Source of the DNA: Segnochrobactrum spirostomi
GTDB lineage: Bacteria > Pseudomonadota > Alphaproteobacteria > Rhizobiales > Segnochrobactraceae
Assembly (NCBI RefSeq): GCF_009600605.1
Contig: NZ_VWNA01000001.1
Coordinates: 3,210,501 to 3,274,500, forward strand
Direction: 5' to 3'
Length of the DNA: 64,000 bases
Position 1 is the stretch's first letter, and each line of letters starts with the position of its first letter. This document shows positions 9,542-31,670 of this stretch, one piece after another. A model generated the notes under the pieces. It saw only the letters and a list, made by a program, of their open reading frames with translations, searched no databases and was not told where the DNA came from. The position numbers were made by a program, and so were the translations under genes.

Positions 9542-9558
9542 ATTAGGATGACTCTAAA
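9542..9558 (+). promoter_or_regulatory. Candidate Irr box (iron control element) 1
   Basis: The 17 bases match 13 of 17 positions of the ICE/Irr-box consensus as I recall it (TTTAGAATAATTCTAAA); the right half-site TCTAAA is perfect. It lies in a sudden AT-rich island of about 90 bases in an otherwise very GC-rich sequence, ahead of an iron-uptake gene cluster. Irr is the haem-responsive iron regulator of Hyphomicrobiales. The match was made by eye. Confidence 0.5.
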
Positions 9559-9604
9559 CTAAGTTGGGCCATTTGATCTGGCTCAACCTGCATCGCACCT
9601 TGAA

Positions 9605-9621
9605 AATAGAATAATTTTAAA
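9605..9621 (+). promoter_or_regulatory. Candidate Irr box (iron control element) 2
   Basis: These 17 bases match 14 of 17 positions of the same ICE/Irr-box consensus, with the core TAGAATAATT intact. It lies 63 bases downstream of the first candidate, or six helical turns centre to centre, so both would face the same side of the DNA. The ferric-binding protein gene starts about 140 bases further on. Confidence 0.55.
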
Positions 9622-9759
9622 AATATGTTGCGGCATATGTCGCGATTGACACAAGGGCTTCGTTCCGTCTTCTGTCCAAATGCGATCGATTTGCAAGAGG
9701 TGCCACCGACAGGCTCGGCGCCGCAGATCGGACAATCGGGCGTGCAGGGAGTCGGGACG

Positions 9760-10821
9760 ATGGCGATGGTCGAAGCAGGATGGCAGGCGCGGGCGGTGCT
9801 CGCCGTGTCCGTGCTGATGGGCGCGGGCCTGTCGGGACTGAGCGCGGCTGCGGCCGCCGACGAGGTCAACGTCTATTCCTATCGTCAACCGGAACTGATC
9901 CAGCCGCTCCTCGACAAGTTCACCAAGGAAACCGGCATCCGCACCAACGTCGTGACCGCGTCCTCCGGTCTCGAGGAGCGCATCGCGGCCGAGGGCGAGT
10001 TCTCGCCCGCCGACGTGCTGCTCTCGGTCGACGTGGGGCGGCTCGAGAACGCCAAGGCGCTCGGCATCACCCAGCCGATCGTCTCGCCGATCGTCGACAA
10101 GAACATCCCGGCGATCTACCGCGATCCGGACGGAAGCTGGATCGGCCTCGCCATGCGCGCCCGCGTCTTCTACGCCTCCAAGGAGCGCGTGAAGGAGACC
10201 GCTCTCGATTACGAGGATCTCGCGAAGCCGGAATGGAAGGGCCGCGTCTGCACCCGCTCCGGCCAGCACGTCTACAATATCGGCCTGTTCGCCTCGCTCA
10301 TCGCCAATGACGGCGAGGCCAAGGCGACCGAGATCATCGAAGGCATCAAGAACAACCTGAACGGCAAGCCCTCCGGCAACGACCGCTCCCAGGCCAAGGC
10401 GATCTATGCCGGCGAGTGCGATATCGCCCTCGGCAACACCTATTATGTCGGCCTGATGGAGACCGACGACCGCGAGCCCGAGCAGAAGAAGTGGGCGAGC
10501 GCGATGCGGGTCATCTTCCCGAATGCCAACAATCGCGGCACCCAGGTCAACATTTCCGGTGTGATCCTCGCCAAGCATGCGCCGAACAAGGCGAATGCCA
10601 TGAAGCTCATCGAATATCTGAGCTCGGACGAGGCGCAGGAATATTATGCCGACGTCAATTTCGAATATCCGGTCGAGCCGGGCCTCAAGGTCAACCCGGT
10701 GATCGCCGCGCTCGGGCCGCTGAAGCCCGATCCGCTGCCGCTCGCCGAGCTGGTGAAGTATCGCAAGCTCGCGAGCGAGATCGTCGACAAGGTTCATTTT
10801 GACGACGGTCCGTCGAACTGA
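9760..10821 (+). CDS. Fe(3+) ABC transporter periplasmic substrate-binding protein (FbpA/FutA type)
   Basis: Periplasmic binding protein of the ferric-ion family. The 353-residue product has a signal peptide of about 36 residues ending in an Ala-rich cleavage region. The mature protein starts DEVNVYSYRQPELIQPL, a hallmark of FbpA/FutA. The paired iron-ligand tyrosines are Tyr228-Tyr229 in GNTYYVG. The ATG at 9760 has AGGGA nine bases upstream; the frame is open further upstream but lacks a signal-like sequence there. No permease or ATPase gene follows, so the ABC partners must be encoded elsewhere. It leads the iron cluster and lies behind two Irr-box-like sites. Confidence 0.92.
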   Translation: MAMVEAGWQARAVLAVSVLMGAGLSGLSAAAAADEVNVYSYRQPELIQPLLDKFTKETGIRTNVVTASSGLEERIAAEGEFSPADVLLSVDVGRLENAKALGITQPIVSPIVDKNIPAIYRDPDGSWIGLAMRARVFYASKERVKETALDYEDLAKPEWKGRVCTRSGQHVYNIGLFASLIANDGEAKATEIIEGIKNNLNGKPSGNDRSQAKAIYAGECDIALGNTYYVGLMETDDREPEQKKWASAMRVIFPNANNRGTQVNISGVILAKHAPNKANAMKLIEYLSSDEAQEYYADVNFEYPVEPGLKVNPVIAALGPLKPDPLPLAELVKYRKLASEIVDKVHFDDGPSN

Positions 10822-10913: not shown

Positions 10914-12197
10914 ATGCGCCGTTTGAACCTTTTCCTGGCCGCCCTCTTGCCGGTCGTCGCGCTGGCAGGGCCCGCCCGGGCCGCCGATGCGCCGGCCCCC
11001 GAGGCGGTGGTCGGGCACTATGCGGACCTCGCCGCCGCCATCTACGGCGATGCGGCGACCACCGCCGAAGCGCTTAAGACCTCGGTCGCCGCGTTCCTGG
11101 CGAAGCCGGACGATCAGACCCTCGCCGCCGCCCGCGCCACCTGGAAGGCCGCCCGCGCGCCCTACCAGCAGAGCGAGGGCTTCCGCTTCGGCAACGCCTT
11201 CGTCGACGATTGGGAGGGCAAGGTGAATTCCTGGCCGCTCGACGAGGGGCTGATCGACTATGTCGATCCGAAGACCTACGGCGAGAGCTCGGATTCGAAC
11301 CCGCTTTACGTGCTCGACGTGGTCGGCCACGAGAAGATCCGCATCGGCTCCGAGACGGTGGACGCCACGGTGATCACCAAGGAGCTGATCTCCGAGAAGC
11401 TCCAGGGTGCGCAGGACGTCGAGGCGAACGTCGCGACCGGCTACCACGCCATCGAGTTCCTGCTGTGGGGCCAGGATCTGAACGGCACGGGTCCGGGTGC
11501 CGGCAACCGCCCGGCCACCGATTATTCGCTGGAGGCCTGCACCCACGGCCATTGCGACCGGCGCCGGCAATATCTCTCGGTCGCGACCGATCTCCTCGTC
11601 GACGACCTGAAATTCATGGCGGACGCCTGGAAGCCGGAGGGTGAGGCGCGCAAGCAGCTTCTCGCCAAGGGCCCCGAGGGTGGCCTCTCGACGATCCTGA
11701 CCGGCCTCGGATCGCTGTCCTACGGCGAGCTCGCCGGCGAGCGCATCAAGCTCGGCCTCATCCTCCACGACCCGGAGGAGGAGCACGACTGCTTCTCCGA
11801 CAACACCCACAATTCCCACTATTACGACGAGGTGGGGATGAACGCGATCTATACCGGGACCTATAAGCGGACCGACGGCACGACGCTGACCGGGCCGAGC
11901 ATCCAGGCGCTCGCGGCCGCCAAGGCGCCCGAGGCGGCGACCCGTCTCGACGACGCCTTCGCGGCGACGCTCGCCAAGATGCAGATCATGAAGGACCGGG
12001 CGGATTCCGGTAAGGAAGCCTACGACCAGATGATCGGGCCCGACAATCCGGAGGGCAACAAGATCATCGACGACGTCGTCACCGCGCTCGTCGCCCAGAC
12101 CCGGGCGATCGAGGGCGTCGTCGCCGCGCTCGATCTGAAGATCACCGTCGAGGGCTCCGACAGCCTCGACAATCCGGGCGCGGTGAAGGCGAACTGA
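10914..12197 (+). CDS. Imelysin-family iron-regulated protein IrpA
   Basis: Periplasmic imelysin (peptidase M75-like) protein of the IrpA group (COG3487), associated with iron uptake. The 427-residue product has a signal peptide (1-23, ending AGPARAAD). The family GxHxxE motif is at residues 176-181 (GYHAIE), followed by FLLWGQDLNGTGPGAGNRP. A second conserved block, DCFSDNTHNSHYYDE, is also present. These residues are thought to bind metal rather than act as a protease. GGGGAG precedes the ATG. It lies 92 bases after the ferric-binding gene, probably in the same transcript. Confidence 0.92.
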   Translation: MRRLNLFLAALLPVVALAGPARAADAPAPEAVVGHYADLAAAIYGDAATTAEALKTSVAAFLAKPDDQTLAAARATWKAARAPYQQSEGFRFGNAFVDDWEGKVNSWPLDEGLIDYVDPKTYGESSDSNPLYVLDVVGHEKIRIGSETVDATVITKELISEKLQGAQDVEANVATGYHAIEFLLWGQDLNGTGPGAGNRPATDYSLEACTHGHCDRRRQYLSVATDLLVDDLKFMADAWKPEGEARKQLLAKGPEGGLSTILTGLGSLSYGELAGERIKLGLILHDPEEEHDCFSDNTHNSHYYDEVGMNAIYTGTYKRTDGTTLTGPSIQALAAAKAPEAATRLDDAFAATLAKMQIMKDRADSGKEAYDQMIGPDNPEGNKIIDDVVTALVAQTRAIEGVVAALDLKITVEGSDSLDNPGAVKAN

Positions 12198-12227
12198 GGC
12201 CGTTCCAAACGGACAGGCCGGACCAAG

Positions 12228-12256
12228 GATCGCCCGGGCCGGAGGCTCGGGCGATC
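12228..12256 (+). terminator. Strong hairpin between irpA-type gene and multicopper oxidase gene
   Basis: A nine-base-pair perfect stem (GATCGCCCG / CGGGCGATC) with an 11-base loop lies 30 bases after the imelysin stop. There is no run of T after it, so it may be a 3'-end stabiliser or partial attenuator within the operon rather than a full terminator. Confidence 0.45.
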
Positions 12257-12324
12257 GTCGTTGTGACGAAGGGTGCGGCCGGGGCAGGATCGTCGGCCAC
12301 GCGGATTTGGGGACGAAGTTGATC

Positions 12325-13803
12325 ATGCCGACGCGCCGCCGCTTCACCTTGGGCCTCGCGGCAACCGCCCTGGCCGGCGCTGGAGCCTACGCCGCCGGCC
12401 GGGTCTTCGTCGGCCGTGCCGCGGCCTATTCCACGGCGGAGCTTTCGCAGACGGCCGTGCCGGCGCCGGCGCGCGAGGTGGCGGTGAGCCTGATGCCGGC
12501 CCCGCGCGCGACCGCCCTGCCAGCCTTCGGCGGGCACGCTTTGCCGCTGTGGAGCTTCGCGCCCGGCGACGTCTTCCCGAACGTGGTGCGGCTGCGGTTC
12601 GGCGAGACCCTCGTCGCGACCGTCGAGAACGGCATTCCCGAGGGCCAGGAGGATCTCACCGTCCACTGGCACGGCGTCCGCCTGCCGAACGCCGAGGACG
12701 GCGTCCCCTACCTCACCCAGAAGCCGATCCCGTTCGGCTCGCGCTTCACCTACCGCTTCACGCCGCCCGACCCCGGCACCTATTGGTTCCACACCCATTG
12801 CAACACGGCGGAATCGATCGGGCGCGGGCTCATCGGCGTCCTCATCGTCGAGGGCGACGAGACCCGGCCCTATGACGCCGACCAACTGCTCTGTCTCAAG
12901 GATTGGCGGGTCGGCACGGACGGCGCCGCGGGCGGCTTCCTGCCCTTCCTGACCGACAGCGGCGCGAGCAAGGCCGGCACCTTCGGCGCGCTGCGCACCG
13001 TGAACGGCGCGGTCTCGCCGCGCTTCGCGCTTCCCGCCGGCGGCGACGTGCGGCTGCGCCTCATCAACGTCGACCCGACGCGGGTGCCCGAGATCGGCAT
13101 CGAGGGCGCGGAGGCCGCGATCGTGGCGGTGGACGGCGCCGGTATCCCGCCGGTGCCCTTCAAGACGTGGCGGCTCGGCCCGGCGATGCGGCTCGATCTC
13201 GTGGTGCGCATGCCGCCGACCGGCGGCGAGGTCCGCGTCGTCGATTATTTCGCCGCCGAGCCGGTGGTGCTTTCGACGCTTGTCGCCACCGGCGACACGC
13301 TCGCCCGCGGCGCCTTCGACCCGGCGCCCCTGGTGCGCCCGGCGATCCCCGAGCCGGACCTCGGCGCGGCCGAGCGGATGCCGTTCGTGTTCAGCGCGAC
13401 CGCGGCCGGCGCGGCGGTCGGCGGTGCCGACGGCATTCCCTTCGGACCGCTCTGCGCGTCGGAGAAGACCTTCTGGGCGATCAACCGCGCGCCGTGGCCG
13501 AACCGCGGCCACGCGGTGCTGCCCCCACCGCTCGCCGACCTGAAGCGCGGCCGCAGCTATGTCTTCGAGCTCGCCAACGTCACGCCCCACGTCCACCCCA
13601 TCCACATCCATGGCCACACCTGGCGGGTAGTGAAGTCGAGCGCCGGGCCGGTGATCCCCCACTTCGCCGACACCGTTCTCGTCGCACCGAAGGAGCGGGT
13701 CGAGGTCGCCTTCGTCGCCGACAATCCCGGTGACTGGATGCTCCATTGCCACATCATCGAGCACCAGGAGACCGGGATGATGGGCTTCCTGAGGGTCGCC
13801 TGA
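12325..13803 (+). CDS. Tat-exported multicopper oxidase (laccase/ferroxidase type)
   Basis: Periplasmic blue copper oxidase coupling substrate oxidation to reduction of O2 to water. The 492-residue product starts with a Tat leader (TRRRFTLG at 3-10). All four copper motifs are intact: HWHG at 114-117, HTH at 156-158, HVHPIHIHGH at 422-431 and HCHIIEH at 474-480. A methionine at about 485 fits the type 1 axial ligand, which suggests moderate redox potential. Placed inside an iron-uptake operon, a ferroxidase role producing Fe(III) for the binding protein is a reasonable inference, but laccase-like or cuprous oxidase activity cannot be excluded. Its stop overlaps the next start (TGATG). Confidence 0.9.
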   Translation: MPTRRRFTLGLAATALAGAGAYAAGRVFVGRAAAYSTAELSQTAVPAPAREVAVSLMPAPRATALPAFGGHALPLWSFAPGDVFPNVVRLRFGETLVATVENGIPEGQEDLTVHWHGVRLPNAEDGVPYLTQKPIPFGSRFTYRFTPPDPGTYWFHTHCNTAESIGRGLIGVLIVEGDETRPYDADQLLCLKDWRVGTDGAAGGFLPFLTDSGASKAGTFGALRTVNGAVSPRFALPAGGDVRLRLINVDPTRVPEIGIEGAEAAIVAVDGAGIPPVPFKTWRLGPAMRLDLVVRMPPTGGEVRVVDYFAAEPVVLSTLVATGDTLARGAFDPAPLVRPAIPEPDLGAAERMPFVFSATAAGAAVGGADGIPFGPLCASEKTFWAINRAPWPNRGHAVLPPPLADLKRGRSYVFELANVTPHVHPIHIHGHTWRVVKSSAGPVIPHFADTVLVAPKERVEVAFVADNPGDWMLHCHIIEHQETGMMGFLRVA

Positions 13804-15035
13804 TGGGGCCAGCCCGCCTCCTCATCTCTGCGGCGGTCTCGCTCGCGGCCGCGCTCGCGCCGGCGGCGGCCGGCGATCTCGATGCCGTCCTCGGCCGTGC
13901 GATCTTCAAGCGCATGTGGGTCGCGGGCGGCGCGTCGACGCGCTCGGCCGACGGCCTCGGGCCGCTCTTCAACGCCCGTTCCTGCACCGGCTGCCACCGC
14001 GATGCCGGCCCGTCCCAGATCCTCGCGCTCGAAGACGGTTCGCTCGAAGGCGCCGGGCTGATCGTCCGCCTCTCCAACGCGGAAGGCGGTCCCGATCCGG
14101 TCTATGGCCGCCAGATCGAGCCGCAGGCGCTCGCCGGCCAGATCGCGGAGGCGAAGACGGAGTTCAACCTGGTGCCGCCCGCGGCGGGCGAGCCCGGGCC
14201 GCACACGGCCGTCGTCCTCTCCGCCTTCGGCTACGGGCCGCTCGCGCCGGGAACCGTGTTCGGCGTGCGCACAGGCCCGTCGCTGCGTGGCCGGGCGGCG
14301 CTCGACCGCATCGACGAGGCGGCGGTCGCGGCGCTCGCCGATCCCGACGACGCCAACGGCGACGGCATCTCGGGCCGCGAACAGCGCCTCGACGACGGCA
14401 AGGGCGGCACCGTGCTCGGCCGTTACGGCTGGCGGGCGGGCCACGCCACCCTGGAGAGCCAGATCGCCGGCGCCTTCTCGCTCGATATCGGCCTCTCGAC
14501 GCCGCTCTATCCGAATCCGGCCGGGGACTGCACGCCGGCTCAGAAGGACTGCCTCGCCGCCCGCCACGGCGACCGGGACGGCATGACCGAGACCGAAGTC
14601 ACGGCCGAGATGCTCGCCATGCTCGACGCCTATCTGGCGAGCCTCAAGGCGCGGCCGCCGGCGGCCGACGGCGCGGCGGGCCGCGCGCTCTTCGTGGCGG
14701 CGGGCTGCGGCGCCTGCCACGTCCCCGAGATGCCGGCGGTCGGCGGCGGTACCGTGCCGGCCTTCACCGATCTCCTGCTGCATGATCTTGGGCCGGGCCT
14801 CGCCGATCCGGCGGTCGAAGGCGTCGCGACGGCACTCGAATGGCGCACGGCGCCCCTCGCCGGCCTCGGTGACGGCCGAACCGGCGCCAGGCGCTTTCTC
14901 CACGACGGGCGGGCCGGATCGATCGACGAAGCGATTCGCTGGCATGGCGGGGAAGCATCCGCCGCGAAGATGCGCTACGAAGGCCTCAGCGCCGCCGATC
15001 GTGCCGCGCTGGTCGCCTATCTCAAGGGGCTGTAA
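13803..15035 (+). CDS. Di-haem CxxCH protein of the DUF1111/COG3488 oxidoreductase family
   Basis: Secreted 410-residue protein of the COG3488 group, formerly annotated thiol oxidoreductase and related to di-haem peroxidases. A signal peptide (about 1-22, ending PAAAGD) precedes two haem c sites: CTGCH at 61-65 and CGACH at 302-306. An acidic segment, DPDDANGDGISG, around residue 180 resembles a calcium-binding loop. The start codon shares a base with the multicopper oxidase stop, and its own stop shares a base with the next start. Family members co-occur with imelysin proteins in iron operons. Electron transfer for iron oxidation or reduction is the likely role, but it is unproven. Confidence 0.9.
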   Translation: MGPARLLISAAVSLAAALAPAAAGDLDAVLGRAIFKRMWVAGGASTRSADGLGPLFNARSCTGCHRDAGPSQILALEDGSLEGAGLIVRLSNAEGGPDPVYGRQIEPQALAGQIAEAKTEFNLVPPAAGEPGPHTAVVLSAFGYGPLAPGTVFGVRTGPSLRGRAALDRIDEAAVAALADPDDANGDGISGREQRLDDGKGGTVLGRYGWRAGHATLESQIAGAFSLDIGLSTPLYPNPAGDCTPAQKDCLAARHGDRDGMTETEVTAEMLAMLDAYLASLKARPPAADGAAGRALFVAAGCGACHVPEMPAVGGGTVPAFTDLLLHDLGPGLADPAVEGVATALEWRTAPLAGLGDGRTGARRFLHDGRAGSIDEAIRWHGGEASAAKMRYEGLSAADRAALVAYLKGL

Positions 15036-16240
15036 TGCGTCGTCCGCTCGCCTGTTCGTTCGTCGTCGCCTTCCTCGCGGCCGTGCCGGCCTTCGCCCAG
15101 ACGGTGCAGCCGAACGCCGCGCCGAACGCCACCGCCACGAAGGCGGACCCGGCGCCCGGCGCGCCGGCGCCGGGCGGTGATGCCTCGGTGCCGATCGTCG
15201 CGGTCGCCAACGCCCCGGCGCGTCAGAAGGCGATCGTCGCGCTCGCGGTCGATCGCTACATTCGTCCGACCTATGCGGCGGTGGCCGACGCCGCGGCGGG
15301 CCTCAAGAGCATCACGGTGCGCTATTGCGCGCAGCCGACCGCGGCGAACGGGGAGGGGGTCGCGGCGGCGTACCGCACGTTCGTCACCGCCTGGGCCGGC
15401 GCCGATTTCCTCCGCTTCGGGCCAGCCTTGGTCGAGCACCGTCTGGAGCGCATGGCGTTCTGGCCCGACCCGCGCAATTTCGTCGAGCGGCAGCTCCGCC
15501 AGATCCTCGCCGCCCCCGACGTCGACAGCTTCGACATCGCCCGGCTGCGCGGCCAGAGCGCGGCGATCCAGGGCCTTCCCGCCTTCGAGCGGCTGATGTT
15601 CGACAAGGACGGCAAGGGCACGGTCCACCCGGACCCCGATGCGGCGACCTTCGGGCGCAAATGCCGCCTTGCGAGCCTCGTCGCCGCGAACATGTCGGAC
15701 ATCGCCGATACGCTGCGCGACGAATGGGCCGAGGAGGGCGGCGCGGCCCAGCAGATCCTCCTCCCGGGGCCGAACAACGCGGTCTATCGCACCGGCGCCG
15801 AGGCGGCGCAGGAGATCGTCAAGGCGATCACGACGGGCCTCGAACAGACCCGGGATCTTGCGATCCGCCCGGCGCTCGGGGCGAAGCCGGAGGACGCCAA
15901 GCCGCGCCGCTTCCCCTATTGGCTGAGCGGCAACACGCTCCCCTATCTGCGGGCTTCCGTGGACGCGCTGCGCCAGATCGTCGAGACGAGCGGGCTCGCC
16001 GACGATCTGCCCGACAGCGAGGCCTGGATGCGCCGCTCGATTCTGCTTGAGATCGGCAATGCCGCGAACGTTCTCGCCAAGGCCGATGCCAGCCCGGAGA
16101 TCCTCGCGACCAACCCGAAGGAACGGGCGCGGCTCAATTATGTGATGATTGCGCTCGCCAGCGCGCGGGAGACGATCGGCGGGCCGCTGGGCGCCACGCT
16201 CGGGCTCAAGGCGGGGTTCAATGCGCTCGATGGAGATTGA
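15035..16240 (+). CDS. Second imelysin-family periplasmic protein (COG3489 type)
   Basis: The 401-residue protein starts with a signal peptide (about 1-22, ending AFAQ), followed by a Pro/Ala-rich linker to about residue 50. A helical imelysin domain comes next, with FGPALVEHRLERMAFWPD and RQLRQILA, both typical of the COG3489 group. It differs strongly from the IrpA-like imelysin upstream, so the operon carries two distinct imelysins as in other alphaproteobacterial iron loci. The one-base overlap (TAATG) with the di-haem gene suggests the two products are made together. Its 3' end overlaps the DUF1513 gene. Confidence 0.87.
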   Translation: MRRPLACSFVVAFLAAVPAFAQTVQPNAAPNATATKADPAPGAPAPGGDASVPIVAVANAPARQKAIVALAVDRYIRPTYAAVADAAAGLKSITVRYCAQPTAANGEGVAAAYRTFVTAWAGADFLRFGPALVEHRLERMAFWPDPRNFVERQLRQILAAPDVDSFDIARLRGQSAAIQGLPAFERLMFDKDGKGTVHPDPDAATFGRKCRLASLVAANMSDIADTLRDEWAEEGGAAQQILLPGPNNAVYRTGAEAAQEIVKAITTGLEQTRDLAIRPALGAKPEDAKPRRFPYWLSGNTLPYLRASVDALRQIVETSGLADDLPDSEAWMRRSILLEIGNAANVLAKADASPEILATNPKERARLNYVMIALASARETIGGPLGATLGLKAGFNALDGD

Positions 16241-17321
16241 TCGCCGCGCTTTCCTCGTCGCGGCGGCGGGGGCCGTCGCGGTGCTGCCGAGCCTCGGGCG
16301 GATTGCCCGGGCGGCGGATGCCGAGCCGCTCTACGCCTCCTGCTGCAAGACGCCGGACGGCCAGTTCGCTGTCGTGATACTCGATGCGGCCGGCACCGTG
16401 CGGCGCACCGAGCTGCTCGCCGGGCGCGGCCATTCGCTCGCCATGGACCGTCAGGGCCGCTGGTGCGTCGCCTTCGCGCGGCGGCCGGGCACTTTCGCGC
16501 TCGCGGTCGATCGCGCCTCCGGCACCGCCGTTCATGCCTTCGAGACGCCGTCGGATCGCCATTTCGAGGGGCACGGCGCCTTTTCGCCCGACGGCCGGCT
16601 GCTTTACGCGACCGAGAACGCCTTCGACGACGGCGTGGCGGTGGTCGGCGTCTATGACGCGACCGGTGGGTTCCGCCGCATCGGCGAACTGCCCGGCCAC
16701 GGCATCGGCTCGCACGAGCTCCTGCTCGCCCCCGACGGGCGCTCGCTCGTCGTCGCCAACGGCGGCATCGCGACCCATCCCGATTATCCGCGCGCCAAGC
16801 TCGACCTCGATGCGATGGAGCCCTCCATCGCCTGGATCGACCGTGATACCGGCGATCTCGTCGAGCGGGTCGATCCGCCGGCGGCGCTGAAGGAACTCAG
16901 CCTGCGGCACATGGCGGTCGATGCGGCGGGGCAGGCCTGGATCGGCTGTCAATGGCAGGGCGACCAGGCGAACCCGGTCCCGCTGCTCGCCGTGTATCGG
17001 CGCGGCGAACCGCTCGCCTTCGTCGACTTGCCCGACGAGGCCCGCATCGGGCTCCAGCAATATGTCGGATCGGTCGCTGCCGACGTCACCGGCCGGCGCA
17101 TCGTGATCGCGAGCCCCGTCGGCGGCACCGTGCTCACCTTCGACGCTGCGAGCCGGCGCCTCCTCGCCAAGGAGGACCTCGTGGACGGCTGCGGCGCCGC
17201 ACCGTTCGAGGCGGGCTTCCTCCTGACCTCGGGCCGCGGCACCCTGCTGCGCGAAGGGGGCCACGGCTCCGAGCGGATCGAGACGCCCTATTCGTGGGAC
17301 AATCACATCCGTTCGATCTGA
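16221..17321 (+). CDS. DUF1513 (COG3490) Tat-exported beta-propeller-like protein
   Basis: The 366-residue product has a Tat-type leader (DRRAFLVAAAGA within the first 20 residues) and a repeat-rich all-beta sequence typical of the DUF1513 family, probably a beta-propeller. Conserved blocks include HGAFSPDG, GIGSHELLLAPDG and the C-terminal WDNHIRSI. GGGG lies four bases before the ATG at 16221; an in-frame ATG at 16230 is the alternative. It overlaps the preceding imelysin gene and closes the iron cluster. Its biochemical role is unknown, and association with iron-regulated operons is the main clue. Confidence 0.88.
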   Translation: MRSMEIDRRAFLVAAAGAVAVLPSLGRIARAADAEPLYASCCKTPDGQFAVVILDAAGTVRRTELLAGRGHSLAMDRQGRWCVAFARRPGTFALAVDRASGTAVHAFETPSDRHFEGHGAFSPDGRLLYATENAFDDGVAVVGVYDATGGFRRIGELPGHGIGSHELLLAPDGRSLVVANGGIATHPDYPRAKLDLDAMEPSIAWIDRDTGDLVERVDPPAALKELSLRHMAVDAAGQAWIGCQWQGDQANPVPLLAVYRRGEPLAFVDLPDEARIGLQQYVGSVAADVTGRRIVIASPVGGTVLTFDAASRRLLAKEDLVDGCGAAPFEAGFLLTSGRGTLLREGGHGSERIETPYSWDNHIRSI

Positions 17322-31118: not shown

Positions 31119-31670
31119 TCACCTCGGCTCCGGGCCGGGCAGGAAGGGATCGAGTGCGGGGAAGGCGATGCGTCCGTCGGCGATCGCCGCGTCGTCGCTC
31201 GCCTCGAGCGCGTGCGCCGCGGCGGCGGCGTAGGCGGCGAGCGCGGCGGACTCGCCCGGCCGCTCGGCATCGGGGAATATGTTGCGGGCGATCGCTGCCG
31301 CCAAGTCGTCGAGATCGCCCGAATCGAGGGCGGCGACATAGGCCGAGAGGCGGCCGTAGAAGGCGGCGATCATCTTCTTGATGCGCTTCGGCACGGCGGT
31401 ATCGCCGACGCCCATCTCGCGCAGCGAGCGGTCCATGTCGCGCATGAAGAGATCGAACAGGGCCTGGCTGCCGGTCTCGTCCGCCCCGCCCGGTCCGCGT
31501 AGGCGGCGGCAGATGAGGACGATGTGGAGAACCACCATGTCGAAGCGCCCATCGAGCGTATCGGGCACGGCGAAGGACGTGTAGAACGTGGGCTGCCGCG
31601 CCTGCGCCACGATCGCCCCATAGAGCGCGAAGGGTTCGGGTTCGTTGCGGCGAAACAGCTTGAAAATCAT
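31119..31670 (-). CDS. Ubiquinol-cytochrome c chaperone (CBP3-like) family protein
   Basis: A 183-residue CBP3/UQCC1-like protein, a chaperone family for cytochrome bc1 assembly. Recognisable blocks are QARQPTFYTSFAVPDTLDGRFDMVVLH and FMRDMDRSLREMGVGDTAVPKRIKKM, then FYGRLSAYVAAL. The ATG at 31670 (MIFKLFRR) is the family-like start. It is divergent from bamE, with about 140 bases between the two starts, and lies upstream of yceD, whose start is within ten bases of its stop. Confidence 0.88.
   Translation of the reverse strand: MIFKLFRRNEPEPFALYGAIVAQARQPTFYTSFAVPDTLDGRFDMVVLHIVLICRRLRGPGGADETGSQALFDLFMRDMDRSLREMGVGDTAVPKRIKKMIAAFYGRLSAYVAALDSGDLDDLAAAIARNIFPDAERPGESAALAAYAAAAAHALEASDDAAIADGRIAFPALDPFLPGPEPR

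Follow-up and report, generated by a model that had tools for sequence, protein, structure and literature searches.

Several described systems resemble the gene set analyzed here. The first is an operon encoding an imelysin, a DUF1111 protein and an IPPA protein; the source that treats it describes it as Fur regulated and names PA4370-PA4372 of P. aeruginosa and VC1264-VC1266 of V. cholerae (PMC3143127). The second is the R. sphaeroides operon hemP-irpA-bfd-bfr-RSP_1545-1544-1543, in which RSP_1545 is the di-haem gene; its source states that these genes are cotranscribed and iron related, and it reports IscR-binding sites (PMC4618611). The third is EfeUOB, which pairs an imelysin domain with a haem enzyme for Fe(II). 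Two sources call the working of imelysin/di-haem iron operons poorly understood or unclear (PMC3143127, PMC9174327).

The locus described here lies in a 64-kb window, which is the whole stretch of DNA analyzed, and comprises six plus-strand genes in the order fbpA, irpA, multicopper oxidase (MCO), DHOR, imelysin 2 and DUF1513. The first gene (positions 9760 to 10821, with a possible alternative upstream start at 9625) encodes an FbpA-type periplasmic ferric-iron-binding protein (phmmer E values of 5.8e-100 to 1y9u and 1.1e-98 to FbpA 1q35). It is followed by an IrpA-type imelysin (10914 to 12197; PF09375, 280 bits; 7xrx, E value of 9.1e-116) with the GxHxxE motif GYHAIE at residue 176. The MCO gene extends from an ATG at 12325 to a TGA at 13801-13803 and encodes a Tat-type periplasmic protein of 492 residues that starts with the twin-arginine sequence MPTRRRFTLG and matches three Cu-oxidase Pfam models, all over their cut-offs. 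The preliminary description of this locus had reported an intact, Tat-exported MCO between the IrpA-type gene and the COG3488 gene and a one-base overlap with the latter, and both statements proved correct: base 13803 is common to the MCO stop and the DHOR start (TGATG). The span of 12228 to 13803 that it gave ends at the MCO stop codon, but its beginning is the start of a hairpin and not that of the gene. The COG3488/DHOR di-haem protein (13803 to 15035; PF06537) is of a short subtype and carries two CxxCH motifs, CTGCH at residue 61 and CGACH at residue 302. The second imelysin (15035 to 16240; PF09375) is of the IPPA type, with the GxxxxE motif GLPAFE at residue 180 and no GxHxxE motif, and the DUF1513 protein (PF07433, 339 bits) is encoded at 16230 to 17321. 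The flanking genes encode a DUF533 protein, an S4/FtsJ methyltransferase, an RNA methyltransferase, a Mem_trans transporter, RbsD/FucU, DUF900 and DUF423 proteins, and one protein without a match.

As judged from its predicted proteins, this set has the sequence features of the imelysin-DUF1111-IPPA operon outlined in PMC3143127, namely, a GxHxxE imelysin, a DUF1111/DHOR protein with two CxxCH motifs, and a GxxxxE imelysin; the predicted promoter element described below would give it iron-type control as well. It differs in that an MCO is located between the first two genes, FbpA is encoded ahead of them and a DUF1513 protein behind, and the DHOR protein lacks the N-terminal GGAAT/FSxPSAN segment. 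Like the R. sphaeroides operon described in PMC4618611, it contains irpA and a di-haem gene with other genes between them; there, however, the gap holds bacterioferritin genes instead of an MCO, and IscR-binding sites are reported. Compared with the account of EfeUOB in PMC9174327 and PMC3143127, the present set likewise combines imelysin with a haem enzyme, but the latter is a di-haem DHOR, an MCO is added, and a Pfam scan revealed no EfeU in the operon. A functional analogy exists with Fet3p-Ftr1p, since in both cases an MCO with complete copper ligands is linked to iron genes; the two MCOs are distant, and the present operon contains a ferric-binding ABC protein in place of a permease. The single FTR1 match in the genome is on contig C3, outside the operon. 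We conclude that the exported oxidase is probably a standing part of iron handling outside the inner membrane. More specifically, we favor, with a probability of roughly 0.55, the reading that it belongs permanently to a periplasmic operon that responds to iron, fbpA-irpA-MCO-DHOR-imelysin2-DUF1513, and oxidizes Fe(II) at its type 1 (T1) copper.

The enzyme itself gives little indication of iron. Twelve residues (H114, H116, H156, H158, H424, H427, H429, H474, C475, H476, H480, and M485) are invariant in 36 aligned sequences, and we take these to be the T1, T2 and T3 copper ligands on the basis of known MCO motifs. In the AlphaFold2 model (pLDDT of 88.2), the nearest solved structure was the P. 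thermotolerans MCO 6vow (Z of 54.6, 1.7 Å over 408 residues, 41% identity), followed by 6vox of P. parafulva (Z of 49.0), the T. thermophilus laccase, further laccases, CueO, and others. Both Pseudomonas MCOs, which we presume to be CumA, share the fold and 40 to 41% identity over about 400 residues. Fet3p was not among the 50 matches listed by VIA-align for this model; it appeared far down in the other comparisons, with a Foldseek E value of 3.0e-32 amid many MCOs and a profile E value of 1.8e-40 versus 3.1e-132 for 6vow. In Fet3p, the acidic residues E185, D283, and D409 lie beside the T1 copper. At the one position compared, four residues before the T1 ligand H424, which we assume to correspond to D409, the protein has T420, which is nearly invariant and not acidic. 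Sequence and fold thus identify a laccase-like MCO, and it is the context that says iron. The preliminary description had held that grouping with laccases unrelated to iron would speak against its proposal; the relationship goes half of the way in that direction, and the iron context contradicts it.

Two other substrates were considered in this light. Many bacterial MCOs of known role act on Cu(I), and CueO-type enzymes are among the structural relatives, so that the protein might be a CueO-like cuprous oxidase that protects the periplasm and whose place in an iron operon reflects the coincidence of copper stress with iron shortage. We consider this unlikely, given that (i) the protein's NCBIfam scores of 106.1 bits for CueO and 135.1 bits for CopA (TIGR01480) are far under the respective cut-offs of 525 and 478.95 bits, (ii) it contains only 8 Met among 492 residues, of which only 485 and 486 are adjacent, and no Met-rich stretch, (iii) no copper-related Pfam family was matched among the scanned window neighbors on either side, and (iv) the predicted promoter element is of the iron type. 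CueO also oxidizes catechol siderophores. In accordance with the laccase-like nature of its best solved relatives, the enzyme could act on phenolic iron chelators, such as catechol siderophores or plant phenolics, and free iron for FbpA; a stand-alone oxidase in another genome (G300:C1, L126 3273-7954) is indeed found near genes for an AraC-type regulator and a TonB-dependent receptor. The scanned neighbors in the window, in contrast, included no siderophore or TonB receptor gene, and we regard this option as improbable. A role of the oxidase in iron handling is likely, its exact substrate being a judgement from context, and oxidation of Fe(II) is plausible.

To determine how common the arrangement is, we compared gene order in relatives, as the preliminary description had proposed. 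Of 289 genomes sampled across the class, 65 encoded a DHOR protein (E value of 1e-20 or better), and 53 of these had irpA ahead of DHOR, in the same orientation and no more than 5 kb away. An MCO gene lay between the two in 6 of the 53 pairs and was lacking in the remaining 47, in agreement with the earlier view that IrpA followed by COG3488 is the usual order. Among 297 genomes of the window's own order, 156 contained DHOR (E value of 1e-30), and an MCO gene directly preceded it on the same strand in at least 27, a number obtained from 39 DHOR and 36 oxidase places that leaves uncounted one genome with both genes at contig ends (G499). Both searches scored part of their first-look candidates. 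Frequencies were taken only from these two counts, since the oxidase served as the bait both for the loci described next and for the IrpA sequences in the tree below, which overstates how often it occurs. In the best 80 of 532 confirmed loci of this kind, the order IrpA-MCO-DHOR was present in 40, and 37 of these also contained imelysin 2 and DUF1513 (the other three being L021, L034, and L074); two more loci (L035 and L045) showed IrpA-MCO only. The 40 loci belong to Hyphomicrobiales (22), Rhodospirillales (10), and unplaced records (8) and cover 14 named families. The same order is kept in both other members of the window's family that were found (G001 and G002), which, together with its presence in many families, rules out a recent insertion in the present genome. 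The idea of an MCO inserted as a peculiarity of one genome was thus not upheld. The oxidase variant is a minority one, but it is old and widespread; our searches of open-licence papers, including one on imelysin, multicopper oxidase and iron, revealed no account of it.

Further observations concern the composition of these clusters. Plasmid records of Azospirillum sp. B510 and A. thermophilum are annotated with the five genes from irpA to DUF1513 in this order; in two Azospirillum records (L147 and L148), the whole set resides on large plasmids, one of which is typed as mobilizable. A ferritin-family gene is located between irpA and the oxidase gene in Aestuariivirga (L048 6692-9392), and in Thalassobaculum (L040 6571-7842) this place is taken by a DUF2325 gene that overlaps the called oxidase start by 4 bases. 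Another ferritin-family (Dps-like) gene lies between irpA and DHOR on the opposite strand in genome G292 (L107 3298-3768). Based on these two ferritin-family genes and on bfd-bfr of R. sphaeroides, we considered whether irpA and DHOR commonly enclose a "ferroxidase slot" but do no more than note the idea, since the cases are few and the gene in G292 is on the other strand. A small protein is encoded before IrpA in Kaistia and Aestuariivirga (L022 6107-6607, L023, L024, L026, L029, and L048; 166 residues in L022 and 145 in L048); that of L022 has no Pfam match, and its gene is located between the iron box and irpA.

The ancestry of the oxidase was assessed with a quick, unrooted tree of 97 sequences, prepared after removal of 18 near-alike Rhizobium oxidases, duplicate loci, and short or interrupted matches. 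With 48 sequences labeled "operon" (IrpA or DHOR nearby) and 49 labeled "alone" according to the fetched flanks, some of them on short contigs (e.g., L036 and L052), 47 of the 48 operon oxidases fell into a single clade of 63 sequences (support of 97). The same clade contains 16 "alone" sequences, namely, those of the Bauldia and Pleomorphomonadaceae groups, the Ferrovibrio/Magnetospirillum group, and Tistlia. The label changed 6 times on the tree, compared with 32.6 times when labels were shuffled. The 48th operon sequence is that of genome G020, in which the oxidase gene adjoins a convergent long-type DHOR gene (L142 10554-13117, G020:C88), an association apart from the main cluster. An unrooted tree of 60 IrpA sequences, 46 from clusters with and 14 from clusters without the oxidase and with duplicate loci left out, required 2 changes. 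These trees do not separate gain from loss; the simplest account would be a single early recruitment, with losses or moves thereafter. A stand-alone oxidase might also have landed in the operon and been kept without a shared role. In this respect, 49 of the 97 wider-family sequences stand alone, again with some on short contigs, and within one genus two genomes (G077 and G303) have the MCO in the set and a third (G205) has the set without it. Passive hitchhiking of this kind is nevertheless very unlikely, as the order has been kept with close spacing throughout the 14 families and two orders.

The di-haem partner differs between clusters with and without the oxidase. We inspected the DHOR N terminus at 61 loci, from which duplicates had been left out; an oxidase was nearby at 46 of them, and the other 15 were chosen by us from the 47 oxidase-free pairs. 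A segment GGAAT...FSxPSAN before the first haem motif was present in 14 of the 15 DHOR proteins without an oxidase and in 1 of the 46 with one. The exception with an oxidase is G020, which is not a true cluster, and the exception without is G205, which belongs to the genus of G077 and G303. Sequence comparison therefore indicates that the short DHOR protein marks the oxidase variant as an old, distinct subtype. Structures similar to the DHOR model (pLDDT of 89.7), with Z values of about 15, include MauG, BthA, and bacterial cytochrome c peroxidases, the best being MauG 3sle (Z of 15.6, 3.5 Å over 246 residues); Foldseek alone returned no match at an E value of 0.001, and a sequence search of the PDB yielded a single weak match, to a cytochrome c. 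With its two c-haem motifs and this modeled fold, DHOR resembles the di-haem peroxidase superfamily (MauG, BthA, and CcpA).

Electrons pass between MauG/CcP enzymes and cytochromes or small copper proteins. It is conceivable that the oxidase and DHOR form one O2-reducing chain in which DHOR passes electrons from imelysin-bound Fe(II) to the oxidase, an arrangement compatible with Fe(II) oxidation by the operon. The absence of the N-terminal segment from 45 of the 46 DHOR proteins with a nearby oxidase and the MauG/CcP-like modeled fold are in line with this, as are the loci of Bauldia and relatives described below. The cluster oxidases and the short DHOR proteins, however, share their ancestry, so that the subtype match amounts to about one historical event and is not independent proof of interaction; moreover, no CxxCH gene was found within 2.5 kb of the oxidase at Rhizobium-type loci. 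We consider such a chain rather unlikely. In Bauldia and relatives (L046 8001-10479, L025, L028, L036, and L037), an oxidase without an iron cluster is adjacent to a cytochrome c gene, whose product has two CxxCH motifs in L028, L037, and L046 and a single one in L025 and L036, where the called gene is shorter. The preliminary description had suggested a functional electron-transfer pair of copper oxidase and haem protein; the tracking of the oxidase by the di-haem subtype and the cytochrome c beside the Bauldia oxidase lend indirect support to such a pair, whose members may exchange electrons.

Evidence for an iron context comes from the region upstream of fbpA. A palindromic motif (TTGGAATaATTCCAA) was learnt from the upstream regions of 23 clusters of other Hyphomicrobiales families, with the window's family held out, and reached a log-likelihood of 129.6 versus 30.4 to 37.4 in 5 shuffled sets searched with equal effort. 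The two best separate sites in the 64 kb are located before fbpA and represent candidate Irr/Fur-type boxes: a proximal one at 9605 to 9621 (AATAGAATAATTTTAAA) and a weak distal one at 9542 to 9558 (ATTAGGATGACTCTAAA). The 23-cluster motif scored 25.1 at 9606-9620 and 14.6 at 9543-9557, and the best score elsewhere in the window was 9.7, 12.5, or 13.1 for motif widths of 15, 17, and 19, respectively. None of 60 shuffled windows matched the score of the former site and 10 of 60 matched that of the latter, which is notable by its place and not by its score. A motif version derived from 19 sites scored 28.2 at 9605, whereas 60 shuffles reached 20.2 at most. In both family members that had been held out, two sites are likewise located upstream of fbpA. 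In its 17-base form, the motif reads TTTGGAA-TAA-TTCCAAA, close to the ICE/Irr box, TTTAGAA-N3-TTCTAAA; each of the two window sites matches 11 of 14 positions of the plain ICE consensus. The genome encodes IrrA (NCBIfam, 219.6 bits with a cut-off of 150) and two further Fur-family proteins. The predicted box, the ferric-binding FbpA as the first member of the set, and the conserved co-location together support the iron context proposed for the oxidase.

No Hyphomicrobiales-type box of at least 14 bits was detected in 44 IrpA-MCO gaps (some loci counted twice), which is consistent with a shared upstream promoter. At the 73 stand-alone oxidase loci, which include duplicates and a few with upstream regions too short to scan, such a box occurred in 5 rows from 3 distinct genomes; the strongest, an Irr-type box of 27.0 bits at L140 (G033:C8), is a hint that iron may also control oxidase genes that lie apart from the operon. 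Many Rhodospirillales-type clusters are preceded by a different palindrome, which is Fur-like. A first Fur-type motif (TGcGAATnATTCgCA), with a log-likelihood of 149.7 versus 47.7 to 53.3 in 5 shuffled sets that were searched with less effort (fewer restarts and iterations) than the real sequences, was set aside because, with the family held out, its best window site at 9681 (15.8) scored barely above an unrelated one at 31661 (14.3).

The predicted control could have either sign. The proximal box lies within a weak sigma-70-like match at 9600-9629, the position expected of a repressor site, whereas R. sphaeroides irpA is reported to rise in low iron, with a wild-type ratio of 4.05 (PMC3413700). 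As the same source describes Irr as repressing in low iron, a box in this position would shut the operon then, opposite to what uptake would call for.

The preliminary description had also placed a strong hairpin ahead of the oxidase gene, and a stem-loop with a 13-bp stem and a 3-nt loop is indeed found on the plus strand at 12228 to 12256, after the IrpA stop codon. The region from 12198 to 12324 folds with a z value of -2.68, and 2 of 200 shuffles were as stable. No T-run follows the hairpin, and the terminator scan lists nothing at this place. In the 90 nt after the IrpA stop codon, stems of 9 bp or more were present at 10 of the 14 clusters without an oxidase and at 21 of the 45 with one, counts for which four oxidase clusters whose next called gene is not the oxidase (L040, L042, L048, and L050) were assigned by hand; shuffled copies had a longest stem of about 6 on average. 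The hairpin is therefore a feature of the irpA 3' end and not part of an oxidase insertion, since it also follows irpA in oxidase-free sets. Perhaps it limits read-through or protects the irpA message.

Fe(II) oxidation within the operon, the reading we prefer, would proceed as follows. (i) The six genes would be expressed on one transcript, with Irr or a different member of the Fur family as the regulator. (ii) The oxidase would leave the cytoplasm through Tat; its type 1 copper would take electrons from Fe(II), yielding Fe(III), and its trinuclear site would reduce O2 to water. (iii) The iron reaching the imelysins and FbpA would thereby be ferric. (iv) The di-haem protein would serve the same end as a parallel peroxide-dependent oxidase or as an electron relay. 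Because FbpA heads the operon and the lone FTR1 is encoded elsewhere, ferric capture by the ABC route would be the more natural sink. Against this reading count the laccase-like Pseudomonas relatives, the MCOs of the wider family, such as those of Rhizobium, whose fetched flanks are devoid of the cluster genes, the 47 of 53 pairs that have no oxidase, the location of FTR1, the score of the distal box, and the sign of control that Irr at the proximal box would give. A bolder and rather doubtful proposal is an O2-driven periplasmic iron-oxidizing chain in which the short MauG-like DHOR works with the MCO as terminal O2 reductase, O2 replacing peroxide, and ferric iron passes to imelysin and FbpA without FTR1.

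The interest of the locus is that an oxidase and an altered di-haem protein go together in an operon of unsettled redox chemistry. The widespread subtype offers a natural comparison, as some copies of the same operon include an O2-using oxidase and others do not, and both forms occur in a single genus; comparing G077 and G303, which have it, with G205, which does not, may show which redox step the operon performs.
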